This document shows, one piece after another, positions 56,520 through 64,000 of a DNA stretch of 64,000 nt. A model generated the notes under the pieces. The model was not told where the DNA came from. It worked only from the letters and a program-made list of their open reading frames with translations, and searched no databases. How positions within the stretch are numbered: the first letter of the stretch is position 1; the number at the start of each line of letters is the position of its first letter. The stretch lies in NCBI RefSeq assembly GCF_002101375.1, contig NZ_CP015207.1, positions 124,001 through 188,000 of the forward strand, written 5' to 3'. The translations under genes were made by a program, and so were the position numbers. This stretch comes from Sporosarcina ureae. Lineage in GTDB: Bacteria > Bacillota > Bacilli > Bacillales_A > Planococcaceae.

Positions 56520-56531
56520 TAAGCATAATGG

Positions 56532-56573
56532 AAGCGTCCTATGAAGTGATACAACTTCATAGGACGCTTTTTT
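56532..56573 (+). terminator. Terminator of the parEC operon
   Basis: AAGCGTCCTATGAAG and CTTCATAGGACGCTT pair perfectly; T6 follows. Confidence 0.92.
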
Positions 56574-57041: not shown

Positions 57042-59195
57042 ATGATGAAAATGATGAATGAAGTACTACCGTCGAATATTGAGCTGGAACCCTTATTCAA
57101 CCCAAAAAGAGTGGCTGTACTAGGTGCTTCGGAAAACACGAACAAAATTGGTTACTTGCAATTAAAAGCACTACTAGACGCAGGCTTTGAAGGGGAGATC
57201 TACCCTATCCATCCCACAGCGAAAGAAATTGGAGAATTGCCTTGTTACACAAGCGTAGGCGATACACCCGAACAAGTCGATTTGGCCATTCTCTGTGTCG
57301 GCATGCACCAAGTAGAGAAATGTCTGATCGATTGCGGTGAAAGCGGTGTCAAGGCGGCGATCGTCTTTGCATCCGGCTACTCAGAGATTGGCGAAGAAGG
57401 AATTATTGCACAAAACCGCCTGAAAGAAATCGCTGAACAATACCAGATGCGATTGATCGGCCCAAACTGTGTAGGTCTTCTCAATACAACAAACGGCTTG
57501 ATGGGTACATTCTCTCCAGGACTTACGAATGTACCGCTTGGCAAGAAACGTGAAGTAGGATTCGTTACGCAAAGTGGCGCTTTTGGTGTGTTGACGTATA
57601 TTGCGGCAGCTCAGCATGGATTGACGTTTAATTACTTCGTCAGTGTCGGCAATGAAGTCGATGTAAGTTTCTCTGACGTCATTGAATACATGTTGCATGA
57701 CCCCAAAACAAAAGTAGCAAGCGGTTATTTGGAAGGCGAGAAAAACGCAGAGAAGTTACGGAAACTAGCGAAATTCGCCCTTCAAATCAATAAACCGATT
57801 GTTATCATGAAGTCTGGACGAAGCAGTGCAGGCAGTCGTGCAGCAGCATCACATACCGGCTCATTGGCAGGTGCTGATAAAGTATATGACGGATTCTTCA
57901 AGCAAGCCGGCATTGTGCGTGCAGACGATTACGATGATATTATTTCATTCTCTAAATTATTCTTAACCAATAAACTTCCGACAGGTAAAAATACAGTGAT
58001 CGTCACGAGTTCAGGTGGCAGGGGAATCAACGAAGCGGATCGTTGTGAATCGTACGGATTAAACATCCATGCGCTAAGCGATAAAGTGCGAAAAGAAATC
58101 GAGAAAAACATTCCCGATTTTGCAAGCGCTTCCAACCCGGTTGATTTAACCGCAGCCGCATCGATCACCAATCCGGAATTGTATCTCGCACCATTAAAAG
58201 TACTCGTCAATGATCCCGATACAGACATTATCTTATTTCCGGAGTTCCCTATTCACTGGGATGAAAACACACCACTTCTTCAGGAATTCATCGAAATTTG
58301 CAAGAACTCGGATAAGTTCGTGTTGATATCGAACTTCCCGCTTGAAGGCATGTCGATTCCAAAAGGCGTGCAGTATCTCGAAGACAACGGCATTCCATTC
58401 ATTCTCGGTAATATGAATCCGATCCGCTCGCTTGCCAAATTAGTGGATTATGCAGAAGCGTATAGAAAAGCGCACAAGATTAGCGATGAGCCTGCAAGAA
58501 AAGAACTGGACGTATCGAACATCCAGCACCTATTACCTGCAAACCAAACGTTGAGCGAATCGCAGTCGAGTGAAATCCTCTCTGCATACGGTATCCGCAC
58601 AGCGAAGCGAATCACTGCCAAGACGGCGGATGATGCAGTACAAGCTGCGAATCACATGGGCTATCCAGTCGTCATGAAAATCGATTCGCCTGATATTCCA
58701 CATAAGACGGAAGTCAACGGGATCCGGCTGAATGTCCAGAACGGCCAAGAAGTACGCCAGGCGTTCAAGGAAATCTACGACAGTGCGAAAGAACATTGCC
58801 CAACAGCGGATCTTCACGGCATATCTATTCAGGAAATGTTGCCTGAAGGCGTGGAAGTCATCGTCGGTGTAACGAGTGATCCGACATTTGGCCCTGTCAT
58901 CATGTTTGGTCTTGGCGGTGTCTTTGTAGAAGTCTTCAAAGATGTATCTTTCCGTGTCGCACCGATCACAAGACAAGATGCTATCGATAAGATGGAAAGC
59001 TTGAAAGGCTATCAAATCCTACAAGGCGTACGCAATAAAAAGCCCGTCGATCAAGAAGCCATTATCGATGTGTTACTGAAAGTTTCAAGATTAATTGAAG
59101 ACTACTCGGATGTCATCCAAGAAATAGACATTAACCCGTTGATCGTTTACGAAGACGGCATTGTAGCGGCAGATGCATTGATCATCACAAAATAA
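57042..59195 (+). CDS. Acyl-CoA synthetase, NDP-forming (acetate-CoA ligase family)
   Basis: 717 residues: a CoA-binding domain (about 17-110) with RVAVLGASENTNKIGY, succinyl-CoA-synthetase-like domains with SAGSRAAASHTGSLAGADKVY (phospho-His271), and an ATP-grasp domain (about 495-717) with GYPVVMKIDSPDIPHKTEVNG and MLPEGVEVIVGV. It makes or breaks acyl-CoA with ADP/ATP and phosphate. First gene of the operon; GAGGTG precedes the ATG. The substrate is probably an organic acid fed to the following genes. Confidence 0.9.
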   Translation: MMKMMNEVLPSNIELEPLFNPKRVAVLGASENTNKIGYLQLKALLDAGFEGEIYPIHPTAKEIGELPCYTSVGDTPEQVDLAILCVGMHQVEKCLIDCGESGVKAAIVFASGYSEIGEEGIIAQNRLKEIAEQYQMRLIGPNCVGLLNTTNGLMGTFSPGLTNVPLGKKREVGFVTQSGAFGVLTYIAAAQHGLTFNYFVSVGNEVDVSFSDVIEYMLHDPKTKVASGYLEGEKNAEKLRKLAKFALQINKPIVIMKSGRSSAGSRAAASHTGSLAGADKVYDGFFKQAGIVRADDYDDIISFSKLFLTNKLPTGKNTVIVTSSGGRGINEADRCESYGLNIHALSDKVRKEIEKNIPDFASASNPVDLTAAASITNPELYLAPLKVLVNDPDTDIILFPEFPIHWDENTPLLQEFIEICKNSDKFVLISNFPLEGMSIPKGVQYLEDNGIPFILGNMNPIRSLAKLVDYAEAYRKAHKISDEPARKELDVSNIQHLLPANQTLSESQSSEILSAYGIRTAKRITAKTADDAVQAANHMGYPVVMKIDSPDIPHKTEVNGIRLNVQNGQEVRQAFKEIYDSAKEHCPTADLHGISIQEMLPEGVEVIVGVTSDPTFGPVIMFGLGGVFVEVFKDVSFRVAPITRQDAIDKMESLKGYQILQGVRNKKPVDQEAIIDVLLKVSRLIEDYSDVIQEIDINPLIVYEDGIVAADALIITK

Positions 59196-59208
59196 GAGGA
59201 GGATGAAA

Positions 59209-59649
59209 ATGGATTTGGATAAAAGTGTTATAGGCTTAACGAGCGCCGAATACGTGTTTGAAATCGAAAGAAGGCATGTCGGCCAATTCGCCACTGCCAT
59301 CGGAGACGACAATCCACTCTATACAGACGACAGCTATGCGAAAGAGTCGGCATACGAAGGACTGATTGTCCCGCCGACATTTCCGATTGCGATGAACGAT
59401 GGCAAAGTAGAAATGCCTTTACAACTTGACCACCGCCGGATGTTGCACGGCGAGCAGGAATTCTTATACTACAAACCGATCCGCGTAGGAGATCAACTAC
59501 GTTGCCAGATGAAAGTTAGCGATCTGTATGACAAAGAAGGAAAGAGCGGAAAAATGCAATTTTTGAAACTAGATACAGAAATGAAAGACGAAGCGGGCGA
59601 ATTAGTTTGTATTAGCCGCATGAACATTGTCTATCGTTCAGCAAAATAA
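59209..59649 (+). CDS. MaoC-like hotdog protein, FAS1-type (probably non-catalytic half)
   Basis: About 146 residues. The motif is FATAIGDDNPLYTDDSYA: where active hydratases have a catalytic His after NPL (NPLH), this has Tyr. It probably pairs with the next protein to form a heteromeric enoyl-CoA hydratase, as ChsH1-ChsH2 do. ATG 59209 follows GAGGAGG at 59196-59202; ATG 59203 is too close. The stop is followed closely by the next gene. Confidence 0.83.
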   Translation: MDLDKSVIGLTSAEYVFEIERRHVGQFATAIGDDNPLYTDDSYAKESAYEGLIVPPTFPIAMNDGKVEMPLQLDHRRMLHGEQEFLYYKPIRVGDQLRCQMKVSDLYDKEGKSGKMQFLKLDTEMKDEAGELVCISRMNIVYRSAK

Positions 59650-59663
59650 TGGGAGGTCGTCAC

Positions 59664-60089
59664 ATGATCAAGGAATGGGAGTTAAAAGAACTAAAGGTAG
59701 ACCAGAAACTAGAGCCTATGGTGAAACCACCCATCACGAAAGTGCAGTTGGCTCAGTATGCAGGTGCTTCTGGGGATTTTAATCCATTGCACCTCGACGA
59801 TGACTTCGCGCAGAAAATCGGCATGGATGGTGTCGTAGCACACGGCATGCTGGTAATGGGTTTCCTTGGGGAGTATGTGATGAAAATTGCTGGCAAGGAA
59901 GCACGCGTCGCAAACTTTAAGATGCGTTTCGGCAAAATGACGGTACCGGGCGATGAAATACGTTGCTCGGGTGTAGTAGAACGAACATATGAAGAAGATG
60001 GCAAGCGATGGATCGCACTGGATCTGACGGCAGAGAAAGTATCAGGAGAAGTGGTCGGATCAGGTAGCGCCATCTTACAACTGACATAA
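59664..60089 (+). CDS. MaoC-like enoyl-CoA hydratase (catalytic half)
   Basis: About 141 residues with the intact hydratase-2 motif YAGASGDFNPLHLDDDFA (catalytic Asp and His). GGGAGG precedes ATG 59664. It is encoded directly behind the FAS1-type protein, so the two likely work together on an enoyl-CoA. It hydrates the double bond formed by the dehydrogenases of the operon. Confidence 0.87.
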   Translation: MIKEWELKELKVDQKLEPMVKPPITKVQLAQYAGASGDFNPLHLDDDFAQKIGMDGVVAHGMLVMGFLGEYVMKIAGKEARVANFKMRFGKMTVPGDEIRCSGVVERTYEEDGKRWIALDLTAEKVSGEVVGSGSAILQLT

Positions 60090-60118
60090 ACAGACGTGAA
60101 ATAGGAGGAAATCTATCT

Positions 60119-61279
60119 ATGGGAACTATTAAAGACCGCTATGCCATTGTAGGCGTAGGAGAGAGTGAACGCTCAAGAAAATCGGGAACAACGCCTTTGC
60201 ATTTGGCACTCGACGCGGCCCATGCAGCAATCAAAGATGCAGGCTTGAAACCGACAGACATCGACGGATTCATGAACTATAACGAAGGGGATTCCTGTAC
60301 GTCTCACCAACTGGCAACGTATCTTGGTGTACGACCGAAATACGTCAAAGATATTCAAGGCGGCGGAGCGAGTACAGAAATGCTGATTGCGGATGCCGTG
60401 GCGCTCATTGAAGCAGGCCAGCTAAACACCGTATTGATCTATCGTTCCATGAACGGTAGTTCGGGAACGCGCGTAGGCCGCGGATATGATCCCGATATGT
60501 TACAAGGGGCGCTCTCGGGCGGAAGCTTCGTGATTCCGTACGGATCGGCAAGCCCATCTCAATGGTTCGGCATGTATGCGACACGTCATATGCACGAAAC
60601 AGGCATTACGAAAGAACATCTTGGGCATGTGTGCTTGAGCTTCTATGAACATGCACAACGAAATCCAAAAGCATTCCTACACGGGAAGCCGTTAACGATG
60701 GAAAACTATCTCGCTACACCGGATATCAGTTCTCCATTCAATATCCATGATTCTTGCCTCGAACTCGATGAAGGAAATGCGATCATTGTCACGTCTGCTG
60801 AAAAAGCGAAAGACTGTACGTCAAAACCGGTCTATATCATGGGGATGGCGGCAAGACAATGTCATCCGCACGCTCACTACTGGAATGATATCGACCAAGT
60901 CGCATCTGATTACGTGGCGGAAGAACTCTATGAAAACGCGGGAGTGACACCGGACGATATCGATGTGGCCTCCATCTATGACTGTTTCAGTTGGGTTGTT
61001 ATGCGCCAGCTGGAAGCATACGGCTTTGCGAAACGCGGAGAAGTGGGAGATTTTGTTGCGGAAGGCAACTTGAAGATCGGTGGTAAACTACCAACCAATA
61101 CAGCGGGTGGCATGCTATCCGAAGGGTATACACACGGAATGAACAACGCCATTGAAATCGTTAGACAGCTGCGCCATGACTACGAAGGAACCGACCGCCA
61201 AGTAGAAGATTGCAAGATCGGTATTTGTACAGGCTGGGCTGGACCGGATATCGCTGGCGCTATGATCTTACGAAACTAG
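60119..61279 (+). CDS. Thiolase-fold lipid-transfer-type protein (possible retro-aldolase)
   Basis: 386 residues: YAIVGVGESERSRKSGTTPLHLALDAAHAAI at the start; the thiolase nucleophile region reads DIQGGGASTEMLIADAV, with no Cys; later ASIYDCFSWVVMRQLEAYGF and LPTNTAGGMLSEGYTHGMNNAIE. This is the SCP2-thiolase/Ltp type, which often lacks the nucleophile and works as an aldolase. AGGAGG precedes the ATG. The DUF35-type gene follows at 12 bases, its usual partner. Confidence 0.87.
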   Translation: MGTIKDRYAIVGVGESERSRKSGTTPLHLALDAAHAAIKDAGLKPTDIDGFMNYNEGDSCTSHQLATYLGVRPKYVKDIQGGGASTEMLIADAVALIEAGQLNTVLIYRSMNGSSGTRVGRGYDPDMLQGALSGGSFVIPYGSASPSQWFGMYATRHMHETGITKEHLGHVCLSFYEHAQRNPKAFLHGKPLTMENYLATPDISSPFNIHDSCLELDEGNAIIVTSAEKAKDCTSKPVYIMGMAARQCHPHAHYWNDIDQVASDYVAEELYENAGVTPDDIDVASIYDCFSWVVMRQLEAYGFAKRGEVGDFVAEGNLKIGGKLPTNTAGGMLSEGYTHGMNNAIEIVRQLRHDYEGTDRQVEDCKIGICTGWAGPDIAGAMILRN

Positions 61280-61290
61280 GAGGAATCACT

Positions 61291-61728
61291 ATGACACAAG
61301 CAACGACTGCTTACCAAAAACCTATTCCATTGAAAGATATAGATAATGCCCCGTACTGGGATGCAGCGGACCAACATCAACTGGCCCTGCAAAAATGTGA
61401 TGATTGTCATGCGTACTCACAACCGCCAGGCCCTACATGCGCAAAATGCGGAAGTGGAAATGTCAGCTGGGAACAGTTAGGCGACGATATTAAAGCTACC
61501 GTCTATTCGTATGTAGTTTCCTACCGTCCATTTTTACCAGGTTTCCAGGATGAGTTACCGACAATTATCGCTCTCGCACAGCTCGACAACGTGCCGGAAG
61601 TGAAAATTATGGGCAATATCTTGAATTGCCAGGAAAAAGATTTGGAAATCGGGATGCCGATCCAAATGACTTGGGTGGATATTACGGAAGACCGTGCATT
61701 GCTACAGTGGATTCCCGTTACGAATTGA
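61291..61728 (+). CDS. Zn-ribbon / OB-fold (DUF35) protein
   Basis: About 145 residues: a rubredoxin-like zinc ribbon CDDCHAYSQPPGPTCAKCGS (about 36-55; two CxxC) and an OB-fold with YSYVVSYRPFLPGFQDELPTIIALAQL. DUF35 proteins pair with thiolase-like Ltp proteins and are needed for their activity in steroid side-chain breakdown. AGGAGG precedes ATG 61291; the frame upstream overlaps the thiolase gene and is not used. Confidence 0.9.
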   Translation: MTQATTAYQKPIPLKDIDNAPYWDAADQHQLALQKCDDCHAYSQPPGPTCAKCGSGNVSWEQLGDDIKATVYSYVVSYRPFLPGFQDELPTIIALAQLDNVPEVKIMGNILNCQEKDLEIGMPIQMTWVDITEDRALLQWIPVTN

Positions 61729-61759
61729 TCGATAGGCGATATAGAAAGGATGAGTGAGT

Positions 61760-62956
61760 ATGGATTTCTCTTTCACGAAAAAAGAAGAAAAATTTAGAAC
61801 CGAATTACGAACATGGCTTGAAGCCAATCTTCCCGAAGGATGGCTAGAAGGCAAGCGCGATTTGCCGGAAGACTTGGATGAATACTCCCGTGTATTACGT
61901 GCTTGGCAAAGAAAATTGTATGAAGGTGGATGGGCAGCCATCGCCTGGCCGAAAGAATATGGCGGTCGCAACGCCAGCTTGATGGAGGAAATTATCTACC
62001 ATCAAGAAATGGTGCGCGTCAAAGCACCGCCACTCATCAACTATATCGGGATCCATATGGTAGGTCCTACGTTGATCGACATCGGAACGGATGAACAAAA
62101 AGAGAAATACTTGAAAAAAATCCTGACAGGTGAAGAAATATGGTGCCAAGGCTATTCTGAGCCGGGCGCAGGGTCGGATTTAACAGGCCTAAAAACACGT
62201 GCGGTAAAAGACGGCGATCGCTGGCTCATCAATGGCCAGAAAGTGTGGACAAGTTTTGGCCACGTGGCGGATAAATGCTTCTTGCTGACGAGAACGAGTA
62301 CGCACCCGGAAAAGAAGCACCGAGGAATTACGGTGTTCATGATGGATATGCATCAACCGGGAGTCGAAACGCTTCCGATCGTGCAGATGGATGGACATAA
62401 AGACTTTAACGAAGTGTATATGACAGACGCTGTCGCAACAGATGCAGATATCGTCGGAAAAGTAGACTCGGGTTGGCATGTATTGATTGCTTTGATGCTC
62501 CATGAGCGTACGGGAATCGGTGCAGAACTCTTCACACTCGAAAAGCAATTCAACGATACAGTGGAACTGGCACAGCAGTATAAAGTAAATGGCAAGCCAT
62601 TGATTGAAAATCCTCTAGTCAGACAAAAATTGGCGAATTTCTATGCCCGCGTGCGTGGATCGCTATTGAATTACTATAAAAACTTGACGACTACGATCAA
62701 GAATGGTCAACCGGGAGCGGAAACTTCGATCGATAAATTGGTGGTAACCGAATTGAACCAGGCACTCTCTGCATTTGCCGTAGAAATACAAGGACACCAA
62801 GGTGTGCTATTTGATAAGGATGCCGTAGCGGATCCGAAGTGGCAGCATTTATTCCTCGCCTCATTCGGACAGACAATCGGTGGCGGTACGAGTGAAGTCC
62901 AACGCAATACGATTGGCGAGCGCGTACTGGGATTGCCAAAAGACATGGGACGTTAA
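61760..62956 (+). CDS. Acyl-CoA dehydrogenase, subunit 1
   Basis: About 398 residues: FTKKEEKFRTELRTWLEANLPE at the start, GYSEPGAGSDLTGLKT (FAD/substrate), and SFGQTIGGGTSEVQRNTIGERVLGLPKD at the C-terminus. The usual Q-x-x-GG-x-G FAD motif is replaced by GHQGVLF, as in one half of heterotetrameric dehydrogenases such as ChsE1-ChsE2. It oxidises an acyl-CoA at the alpha-beta position. ATG 61760 follows AAAGGATG. Confidence 0.92.
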   Translation: MDFSFTKKEEKFRTELRTWLEANLPEGWLEGKRDLPEDLDEYSRVLRAWQRKLYEGGWAAIAWPKEYGGRNASLMEEIIYHQEMVRVKAPPLINYIGIHMVGPTLIDIGTDEQKEKYLKKILTGEEIWCQGYSEPGAGSDLTGLKTRAVKDGDRWLINGQKVWTSFGHVADKCFLLTRTSTHPEKKHRGITVFMMDMHQPGVETLPIVQMDGHKDFNEVYMTDAVATDADIVGKVDSGWHVLIALMLHERTGIGAELFTLEKQFNDTVELAQQYKVNGKPLIENPLVRQKLANFYARVRGSLLNYYKNLTTTIKNGQPGAETSIDKLVVTELNQALSAFAVEIQGHQGVLFDKDAVADPKWQHLFLASFGQTIGGGTSEVQRNTIGERVLGLPKDMGR

Positions 62957-62976
62957 TAGATTTGGAGGGATGAAAT

Positions 62977-64000
62977 ATGGACTTTTCACTAACAGAAGAG
63001 CAAGAAATGTTCCGTGGACATATCCGTAAAATGTTGGATAAATTCGGCGGTACACAGCTAGCTCGAGAAATGATTGACAATAATCCGGAAAACTTGAAGA
63101 AAGTGTACACGACATTAGCTGAACTTGGATGCAGCGGCATCAACATTCCTGAAGAATACGATGGTATGGATCTGGATGCACTCGATCTCGTTCCGACGTT
63201 TGAAGAAATGGGACGTTCATTAGTACCTGGCTTGTTCATGGAAACTTCCGCGTTGGTAGTACCGATCCTGAAGAAATACGGAACAGAGCAACAGAAACAA
63301 CAGTATCTGTCCGCCATCGCTTCGGGAGAAACTTGGATTTCATTTGCTGCACTTGAGCCGTTCAATGACTTCTCCCCAGCAGGTATCCAATGTACATTGG
63401 TGCAGCACGATGGACAGTACGTACTAAACGGCACGAAGACGCTTGTACCGGAAGCGGAACTTGCGGATGCATTCCTCGTATTGGTACGCACAAACCAAGA
63501 AGATCAAGAAGACGGACTATCGCTTGTGCTGATCGACAAAACGGAAGAATTGAACATCGAAAAACAATCTTCTTTTGACGAATCAACACATGTAGCGAAA
63601 ATCGAATTCAATCAGCTTGTCATCAAAGAAGATCAAATTATAGGTGAAGTAGACAAGGGATGGACGCAACTCCAAGAAGGTCTGTTGTACTTCAATGCCG
63701 CACTGAGTTCATACATCGTCGGCGCAATGGAAAGTGTTGTCAACATGGCGACCGAATATGCGAAGATTCGGGAGCAGTTCGGCCAAGCGATCGGACGTTT
63801 CCAGGCGATTAAACATAGTATCGTCAACATGAAAGTGAATTTGGAAATTGCGCGCTCACTGAGCCATTATGCCAACTGGGTAGTGGATACGGACGAATTC
63901 GATCGAGAAGCGGCCATTTACAGCGCCCGTACATATGCGACGGAGAAATTCATCGAAGTTTCGGCACATAATATTCAAATCCACGGTGGAATCGGATTCA
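62977..64000 (+). CDS. Acyl-CoA dehydrogenase, subunit 2 (cut by the window end)
   Basis: At least 341 residues; open to the end of the window. It starts MDFSLTEEQEMFRGHIRKML with GGAGGG upstream. It keeps the FAD-binding IQIHGGIGF that the first subunit lacks, while the TSE-type C-terminal motif lies beyond the window. Residues 150-230 are more diverged than usual (few conserved substrate-site residues). It probably pairs with the preceding protein. Confidence 0.9.
   Translation, partial: MDFSLTEEQEMFRGHIRKMLDKFGGTQLAREMIDNNPENLKKVYTTLAELGCSGINIPEEYDGMDLDALDLVPTFEEMGRSLVPGLFMETSALVVPILKKYGTEQQKQQYLSAIASGETWISFAALEPFNDFSPAGIQCTLVQHDGQYVLNGTKTLVPEAELADAFLVLVRTNQEDQEDGLSLVLIDKTEELNIEKQSSFDESTHVAKIEFNQLVIKEDQIIGEVDKGWTQLQEGLLYFNAALSSYIVGAMESVVNMATEYAKIREQFGQAIGRFQAIKHSIVNMKVNLEIARSLSHYANWVVDTDEFDREAAIYSARTYATEKFIEVSAHNIQIHGGIGF

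Follow-up and report, generated by a model that had tools for sequence, protein, structure and literature searches.

A putative aldolytic beta-oxidation operon with a predicted DUF35-coupled retro-aldolase in Sporosarcina ureae

In the portions of the literature covered here, thiolase-fold retro-aldolases coupled to DUF35 proteins have been characterized in steroid pathways. The aldolase TcLtp2 carries the catalytic residues Tyr294 and Tyr344, and CtSal carries Tyr302 and Cys304 (excerpt of PMC12329534). During the breakdown of bile acids, the aldehyde dehydrogenase Sad oxidizes an aldehyde formed by Sal1, whereas the C3 side chain bears a tertiary hydroxy group that is not oxidizable to a keto group before cleavage (excerpt of PMC8399759). 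Outside steroid metabolism, a thiolase from ipfDE is credited with the release of propionyl-CoA in the ibuprofen-CoA pathway (excerpt of PMC9195938). Here we describe an operon at the end of a 64,000-nucleotide stretch of DNA (the window; positions 124001-188000 of the single-contig, 3,353,765-bp genome of Sporosarcina ureae), the gene content of which had led a preliminary description to liken it to the actinobacterial igr operon of sterol side-chain removal. The Ltp-type protein encoded by this operon is very probably a retro-aldolase rather than a thiolase. With slightly better than even confidence, we propose that the operon is catabolic and uses an aldolytic variant of beta-oxidation to shorten a hydrophobic carboxylic acid, either along its chain or in a side chain.

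The seven genes named in the preliminary description, from a ligase to a second acyl-CoA dehydrogenase, were all found on the plus strand at 57042-64000 in the order listed, and family searches back every assignment. Extension past 64 kb, which that description had called for, shows that the operon runs on into genes for an aldehyde dehydrogenase (ALDH), a major facilitator superfamily (MFS) transporter, EtfB, EtfA and a helix-turn-helix (HTH) protein (Table 1). Among 261 genomes sampled from the order, 44, the window genome included, have an Ltp orthologue of 71% identity or more, and these 44, together with two Virgibacillus loci and one Mesobacillus locus from outside the order sample, make up the 47 loci examined. 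Six core genes, encoding the two MaoC halves (MaoC1 and MaoC2), Ltp, the DUF35 protein and the two acyl-CoA dehydrogenases (ACAD1 and ACAD2), recur in all 47, and thus the set is not a chance assembly. Locus counts were made at a coverage of 0.8, within 8 or 12 kb, and at identities of 45% for the NDP-forming ligase and both kinds of ALDH, 40% for the AMP-forming ligase and the MFS transporter and 25% for the remaining genes.

The distribution of the operon is narrow. At this identity level, a sample of 398 genomes of the class had Ltp orthologues solely within the family to which the window belongs, and a sample of 398 genomes of the phylum had them solely in the window genome. The proteins of S. 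ureae, S. aquimarina and Sporosarcina sp. are 97-98% identical. A 45th genome of the order has a 37% match only, and the other matches in the order search are all 41% or lower. Matches of 37-41% were seen in six other genomes of the order.

Gene content, gene order, residue changes and conservation are read directly from the sequence, and the residues of Ltp are the most telling of these. In a sequence alignment, the position of the thiolase nucleophilic cysteine is occupied by Gly83 in the window protein and by glycine in all 47 orthologues, as it is in TcLtp2 and CtSal; the cysteine is kept in four paralogues of the same genome (one each in loci L008 and L009, two in L010). The GHP motif of thiolases is replaced by EGY.HG. 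Tyr287, Asp288, Cys289 and Tyr337 are invariant across the 47 loci. Of these, Tyr287 and Tyr337 align with the two catalytic tyrosines of TcLtp2, and Tyr287 and Cys289 align with the catalytic pair of CtSal, such that the active site has both the catalytic Tyr-Asp-Cys known from Sal and the second of the two catalytic tyrosines of Ltp2. Among six aligned plasmid proteins, the same Tyr-Cys-Tyr combination is present in Bosea, in Sphingopyxis and in one Rhodococcus, and therefore the hybrid site is not confined to Sporosarcina.

Structural and phylogenetic comparisons are consistent with this assignment. An AlphaFold model of Ltp (mean predicted local distance difference test score (pLDDT) 73.4) finds 4u4e and 6ok1 (TcLtp2) as its nearest folds (Z 40.8), followed at Z values of about 35-39 by DUF35-linked thiolases, TbSLP, CtSal and SCP2 thiolases, and at 29-30 by canonical thiolases. 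In a tree of 31 rows, the thiolases split off with support of 100/100 and the window Ltp lies in a clade of nine rows, also supported at 100/100. A second clade (99/95) comprises TcLtp2, a Vibrio protein, a Rhodococcus rhodochrous plasmid protein and a paralogue from the S. ureae genome (locus L007). Under the approximately unbiased (AU) test, a forced clade of the window Ltp with thiolases is rejected (p 0.007), as is one with CtSal, the single, long-branch Sal row (p 0.001), and one with the Ltp2 group stays just above the threshold for formal rejection (p 0.051). The groups for these tests were picked after inspection of a first tree of 40 rows, which held 15 of the 47 window-clade rows and a wrong open reading frame of L075 on a very long branch; the 31-row tree uses another L075 reading frame, holds 9 of the 47 rows and omits six orthologues as well as Chelat_L102, Simplici2_L098 and Rhodoc2_L079. 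These comparisons place the Ltp lineage apart from Sal and from thiolases, and they favour, short of proof, its separation from Ltp2 as well.

The retro-aldol chemistry put forward in the preliminary description is thus borne out by the missing nucleophile, the aldolase-type tyrosines and the nearest folds, 4u4e and TcLtp2. That description had named two observations that would speak against it, an intact thiolase cysteine and a phylogeny placing the proteins with ordinary families; no nucleophilic cysteine aligns in the sequence comparison, and Ltp does not group with the thiolases. If the operon instead served plain beta-oxidation and Ltp were a thiolase, whether ordinary or altered, the thiolase fold of Ltp would be explained, as would the name 'acetyl-CoA acetyltransferase' that relatives carry in plasmid records. 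This reading is opposed by the invariant glycine, the altered GHP motif and the clade test, and 3-hydroxyacyl-CoA dehydrogenase, which thiolysis requires, is not among the twelve operon genes identified. We consider a thiolase highly improbable and rejected it on account of the lost nucleophile and the negative clade test.

The same data bear on whether the locus is a true igr operon, which would take off the last C3 of a steroid side chain as propionyl-CoA and leave a ring ketone. The enzyme types are the same, with paired catalytic-looking and inert-looking halves; TcLtp2 is among the nearest sequences and folds, and Tcur3483 is near ACAD1. However, the window Ltp scores 334 bits against the NCBIfam model PRK07855, under the cut-off of 469, and sits in its own clade, though its union with the Ltp2 group narrowly escapes rejection. 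(That Ltp2 belongs to the PRK07855 subfamily is taken from the tree.) The site reads YDC in place of YDH, DUF35 is unfused, an ALDH is linked in 40 of 47 loci and the steroid-degradation family KshA_C was not found in the genome, which is a weak test given that 14 control genomes yielded one match, under the cut-off. A second operon of the same kind, on the minus strand at about 538-545 kb of the genome (G000:C1; 8393-15008 of the L007 stretch), encodes an Ltp that passes the PRK07855 cut-off with 500 bits, carries the motifs YDA and SEGY and groups with TcLtp2, along with a MaoC pair of one Tyr and one His version. Because its Ltp passes PRK07855 and groups with TcLtp2, the L007 operon, and not the window operon, is the nearer igr relative. 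Igr membership was rejected on the PRK07855 miss, the YDC motif, the separate clade and the presence of this closer relative, and it now appears very unlikely.

Several further loci carry related genes. L008, L009 and L010 each pair a DUF35 protein with a Cys-bearing thiolase-fold protein, and in each a gene for the TRAP-transporter component DctP or DctM lies no more than about 7 kb away. The Vibrio member of the Ltp2 clade has a 323-aa OB-fold protein encoded nearby. On the Rhodococcus rhodochrous plasmid (L101, 5532-8164), an actinobacterial set of a MaoC pair, an unfused DUF35 protein and an Ltp2-clade protein lies beside an annotated 3-(3-hydroxyphenyl)propionate hydroxylase gene.

The partner proteins of the window operon show the paired architecture that the preliminary description had read from the gene list, with one catalytic-looking and one inert-looking member in each pair, as judged from residues in the 47 loci. 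The catalytic histidine position of MaoC1 holds tyrosine in 46 loci and phenylalanine in one, and MaoC2 keeps its catalytic aspartate and histidine in all 47. A His-to-Tyr change has been described for ChsH2, and HadA and HadB form a non-catalytic and catalytic pair (excerpt of PMC11321319). HadA and HadB show the same Tyr/His pattern as ChsH1/ChsH2-type halves. The DUF35 protein is, as had been noted, the product of its own gene (61291-61728); its four cysteines are present in 47 of 47 loci, and among solved chains it comes closest to 6ok1_B, the DUF35 part of ChsH2, and to 9myr_B from the Sal-Shy(DUF35) complex. A separate DUF35 protein is not special to this operon, since the Rhodococcus plasmid also encodes one, next to a MaoC pair and a protein of the Ltp2 clade.

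The dehydrogenases differ in the same manner. ACAD1 has the glutamate of its HER motif, at an IVD-like position, in all 47 loci, and its best solved chains are 4x28_A and Tcur3483 (6wy8_B). We take 4x28 to be FadE26/27, and both chains to be the catalytic halves of steroid-type heteromeric dehydrogenases. ACAD2 has glutamate at neither catalytic position in any of the 47 loci. It is not distinctly similar to the inert steroid-type half, as Tcur3481 ranks second from the bottom of the 48 chains listed.

Around the conserved core, the ancillary genes vary. The NDP-forming ligase lies within 8 kb, at 45% identity or more, in 34 loci, and in 11 it is replaced by an AMP-forming ligase (at least 40%). 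Two loci have neither nearby: L071, a 7.6-kb contig, and L072, in which an AMP-forming ligase lies farther away. In L048 the NDP-forming ligase is interrupted, falling into two open frames in a stretch that partly reads N. In 34 loci the orthologous ALDH lies no more than 8 kb away at an identity of 45% or above, and its presumed catalytic cysteine is present in 34 of 34. A different ALDH, assigned to Aldedh by Pfam and 24-25% identical to the first where aligned, occurs in six more loci (five from one genus, one from another), and an ALDH of either kind is thereby near 40 of the 47. L042 has two ALDH copies. Eleven loci have EtfBA and 17 have the MFS transporter at 40% identity or more; the 663-aa HTH protein occurs in 33 and a GAF/PucR-type regulator in 12.

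In ten loci (L045, L049-L053 and L086-L089), the NDP-forming ligase and the 663-aa protein are swapped, as a module, for a ligase of the AMP-forming type and a divergent GAF/PucR-type regulator. L071, on its short contig, has the regulator without the AMP-forming ligase, and L056 has that ligase without the regulator. In the 663-aa protein, Pfam sees only the C-terminal HTH, and 536 of 663 residues are modelled with a pLDDT of at least 70. A fold search with this model gave no match at E 0.001 or better, and the 50 matches listed look like HTH or DNA-binding proteins. The protein possibly represents an undescribed regulator family.

From these genes we infer the reactions, the pairings, the aldehyde and the hydrophobic, non-steroid substrate of the following pathway. 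The ligase would form an acyl-CoA, which ACAD1 and ACAD2, acting as one heteromer with a single Glu-bearing half, would oxidize to a 2-enoyl-CoA, passing electrons to Etf. The window genome's operon has its own Etf, and none is shown in 36 of the 47 loci. The MaoC pair, one half catalytic and the other substrate-binding, would then hydrate the 2-enoyl-CoA to a 3-hydroxyacyl-CoA. Ltp, on its DUF35 scaffold, is predicted to split the C2-C3 bond by retro-aldol cleavage into acetyl- or propionyl-CoA and an aldehyde, with Tyr287 as the base and Cys289 and/or Tyr337 as the acid. Finally, ALDH would oxidize the aldehyde to a shortened acid that is open to renewed activation. Because an ALDH is linked in 40 of 47 loci, in the manner of Sal and Sad, analogy argues for an aldehyde product, and hence a secondary beta-hydroxyacyl-CoA, rather than the ketone of a tertiary substrate. 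The tertiary acyl-CoA favoured in the preliminary description is therefore not upheld.

The ring-bearing substrate also suggested there finds no support in the genome: KshA_C, Dioxygenase_C, HgmA_C, PaaA_PaaC and LigB, the ring-degradation families searched, gave no match in it, and in 14 control genomes these families exceeded the cut-off in 0, 4, 1, 4 and 4 genomes, respectively. KshA_C is the single steroid family among them. Neither the neighbourhoods of 12 Ltp relatives on plasmids, taken from 229 matching records, nor the plasmid context of the ligase gave a substrate clue. The alternative AMP-forming ligase scores best as a long-chain-fatty-acid--CoA ligase (413 bits, under the cut-off of 476), and because of this match a hydrophobic substrate is proposed. 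With low certainty, we suggest a hydrophobic, probably branched aliphatic acid. The score of ALDH is highest for betaine-aldehyde dehydrogenase, at 392 bits under a cut-off of 668.6 and near many other families; a betaine or carnitine route for the product was rejected on this score and for want of a recognizable betaine-type transporter among the genes read.

Two classes of non-steroid acid deserve consideration. In the first, the side chain of an aromatic acid of the hydrocinnamate or indole-propionate type would be converted to an aryl aldehyde and then to an aryl acid destined for excretion or for use elsewhere. The 3-(3-hydroxyphenyl)propionate hydroxylase annotation next to the Ltp2-clade relative on the Rhodococcus plasmid would fit such a route, and an aldehyde product matches CoA-dependent cinnamate chemistry. 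Set against this are the four aromatic families not found in the genome (Dioxygenase_C, HgmA_C, PaaA_PaaC and LigB), and reading by eye through the neighbourhoods of some of the 47 loci revealed no recognizable aromatic-pathway genes; an aromatic substrate seems unlikely. The second class, a branched or isoprenoid aliphatic acid degraded in repeated rounds of aldolytic chain shortening, agrees with the missing ring genes, with the fatty-acid-type alternative ligase and with the IVD-like glutamate position of ACAD1. No isoprenoid or branched-acid marker gene was recognized in the loci read, however, and a plain secondary alcohol has no chemical need of a dedicated aldolase. We regard this second class as a real but tentative candidate, which we would not put at an even chance.

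Several observations weigh against aldolytic shortening of a non-steroid acid as proposed here. TbSLP and archaeal thiolase-type chains follow close behind the best folds of Ltp, at Z 38-39, and so fold alone hardly tells aldolase from thiolase. Both MaoC halves are closer to HadA/HadB than to ChsH1/ChsH2, and the best solved matches of ACAD2 are ordinary acyl-CoA dehydrogenases. The lack of ring-cleavage genes is judged from five Pfam families, and family scores cannot give the specificity of ALDH or of the ligase. ALDH itself may be peripheral, because seven of the 47 loci (L054, L056, L059, L071, L072, L090 and L091) have no ALDH of either kind nearby. Five of the six different ALDHs belong to a single genus and the sixth to a second genus, so that they may go back to one event or to an inherited neighbourhood. 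In the literature searched, no measured activity was met for any window-clade enzyme.

The most far-reaching form of the proposal is that DUF35-coupled retro-aldolases have a third lineage, marked by a Tyr-Cys-Tyr site, which in the Planococcaceae takes a non-steroid acid through a complete aldolytic beta-oxidation, each round of which would yield acetyl- or propionyl-CoA and an aldehyde that a dedicated ALDH converts to the next shorter acid. We consider this plausible, if a little short of an even chance. The chemistry is known mainly from steroid-degrading bacteria and would here act on what is probably a non-steroid acid. If so, a complete and differently wired set in Bacillales, without sign of steroid use, would make the chemistry a general one, provide a new substrate class for CoA-ester aldolases and allow the question of cysteine or tyrosine as the acid to be tested in a Tyr-Cys-Tyr active site. 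Among the titles and abstract openings of open-licence PMC papers, the operon was not reported in Firmicutes.

Table 1 Features of the operon and its surroundings (window numbering; 'equivalent' marks positions that lie past the window's end)
Feature	Position	Strand	Basis or remarks
Intrinsic terminator-like hairpin after parC	56530..56571	+	18-pair stem, 6-base loop, T-rich tail; consensus match only
NDP-forming acyl-CoA ligase, 717 aa	57042..59195	+	ATP-grasp_5, Succ_CoA_lig, CoA_binding_2
MaoC half 1, HadA-like, probably non-catalytic partner (His to Tyr)	59203..59649	+	FAS1_DH_region / HadA
MaoC half 2, HadB-like, predicted catalytic enoyl-CoA hydratase	59664..60089	+	MaoC_dehydratas / HadB
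Ltp-type thiolase-fold protein, predicted retro-aldolase, 386 aa	60119..61279	+	Gly83, Tyr287-Asp288-Cys289, Tyr337
Free-standing DUF35 protein, predicted aldolase partner	61291..61728	+	zf-ChsH2 (zinc ribbon, four Cys) and OB_ChsH2_C (OB fold)
Acyl-CoA dehydrogenase 1 (ACAD1), catalytic half	61754..62956	+	Glu in HER motif
Acyl-CoA dehydrogenase 2 (ACAD2), predicted non-catalytic half	62977..64000, ends beyond window at 64110 equivalent	+	Without catalytic Glu
ALDH	64129-65616 equivalent, beyond window	+	Downstream of ACAD2
MFS transporter, 480 aa	65771-67213 equivalent, beyond window	+	
EtfB	67248-68021 equivalent, beyond window	+	
EtfA	68051-69037 equivalent, beyond window	+	
HTH protein, 663 aa	69209-71200 equivalent (L006 13209-15200), beyond window	+	C-terminal HTH

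The hairpin after parC (ParC was named by eye) sets the operon apart from the upstream genes. In L006, a 20-kb stretch around the window end, terminator-like sites number 13 against 13.4 expected from shuffles, and the other 12 listed have stems of nine pairs or fewer. Promoter-like sites are not enriched in that stretch (29 against 29.5 in shuffles), and no tandem repeats were found in it. The operon has a GC content of 46.1% compared with 41.7% for window positions 1-57000. For the DUF35 gene, the ATG at 61291 is the most likely start, rather than the TTG at 61210, and MaoC half 2 most likely begins at 59664. A second EtfA is present elsewhere in the genome.

Comparison with the described systems places the operon between them. 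It shares with igr a dehydrogenase pair with one Glu-bearing half, a MaoC pair with a His-to-Tyr half and a DUF35-linked aldolase that lacks the thiolase cysteine and has two catalytic tyrosines (Tyr287 and Tyr337, corresponding to 294 and 344 of TcLtp2). Unlike in igr, DUF35 is not fused to the inert MaoC half, a YDC motif with Cys289 stands where Ltp2 has the histidine of YDHF, Ltp forms a separate clade, an NDP-forming ligase and an ALDH are linked, and KshA_C was not found. The L007 operon of the same genome likewise has a ligase, an ACAD pair, a MaoC pair, an Ltp and a separate DUF35 protein, but its ligase is AMP-forming, it includes family III CoA transferases and no ALDH was recognized by eye in its 20-kb stretch. 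With the ibuprofen system IpfD-IpfE, the operon would have in common a thiolase-type protein in a non-steroid pathway. In that system the substrate is a dioxygenated aryl-CoA, IpfE is a DUF35 protein, and no MaoC or dehydrogenase pair is known. Sal-Shy-Sad offers the Tyr-Asp-Cys motif without a thiolase nucleophile, found here in 47 of 47 loci, and a retro-aldol reaction to an aldehyde followed by an aldehyde dehydrogenase, both of which are predicted for the present operon. In contrast to the free C4 DUF35 protein and the MaoC pair of the present operon, Shy joins DUF35 and MaoC in one fused protein, the zinc site of which is C3H1, and Sal is without the second tyrosine and does not form a clade with the window Ltp. 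The operon therefore resembles both igr and Sal-Shy-Sad in its working and meets the definition of neither.

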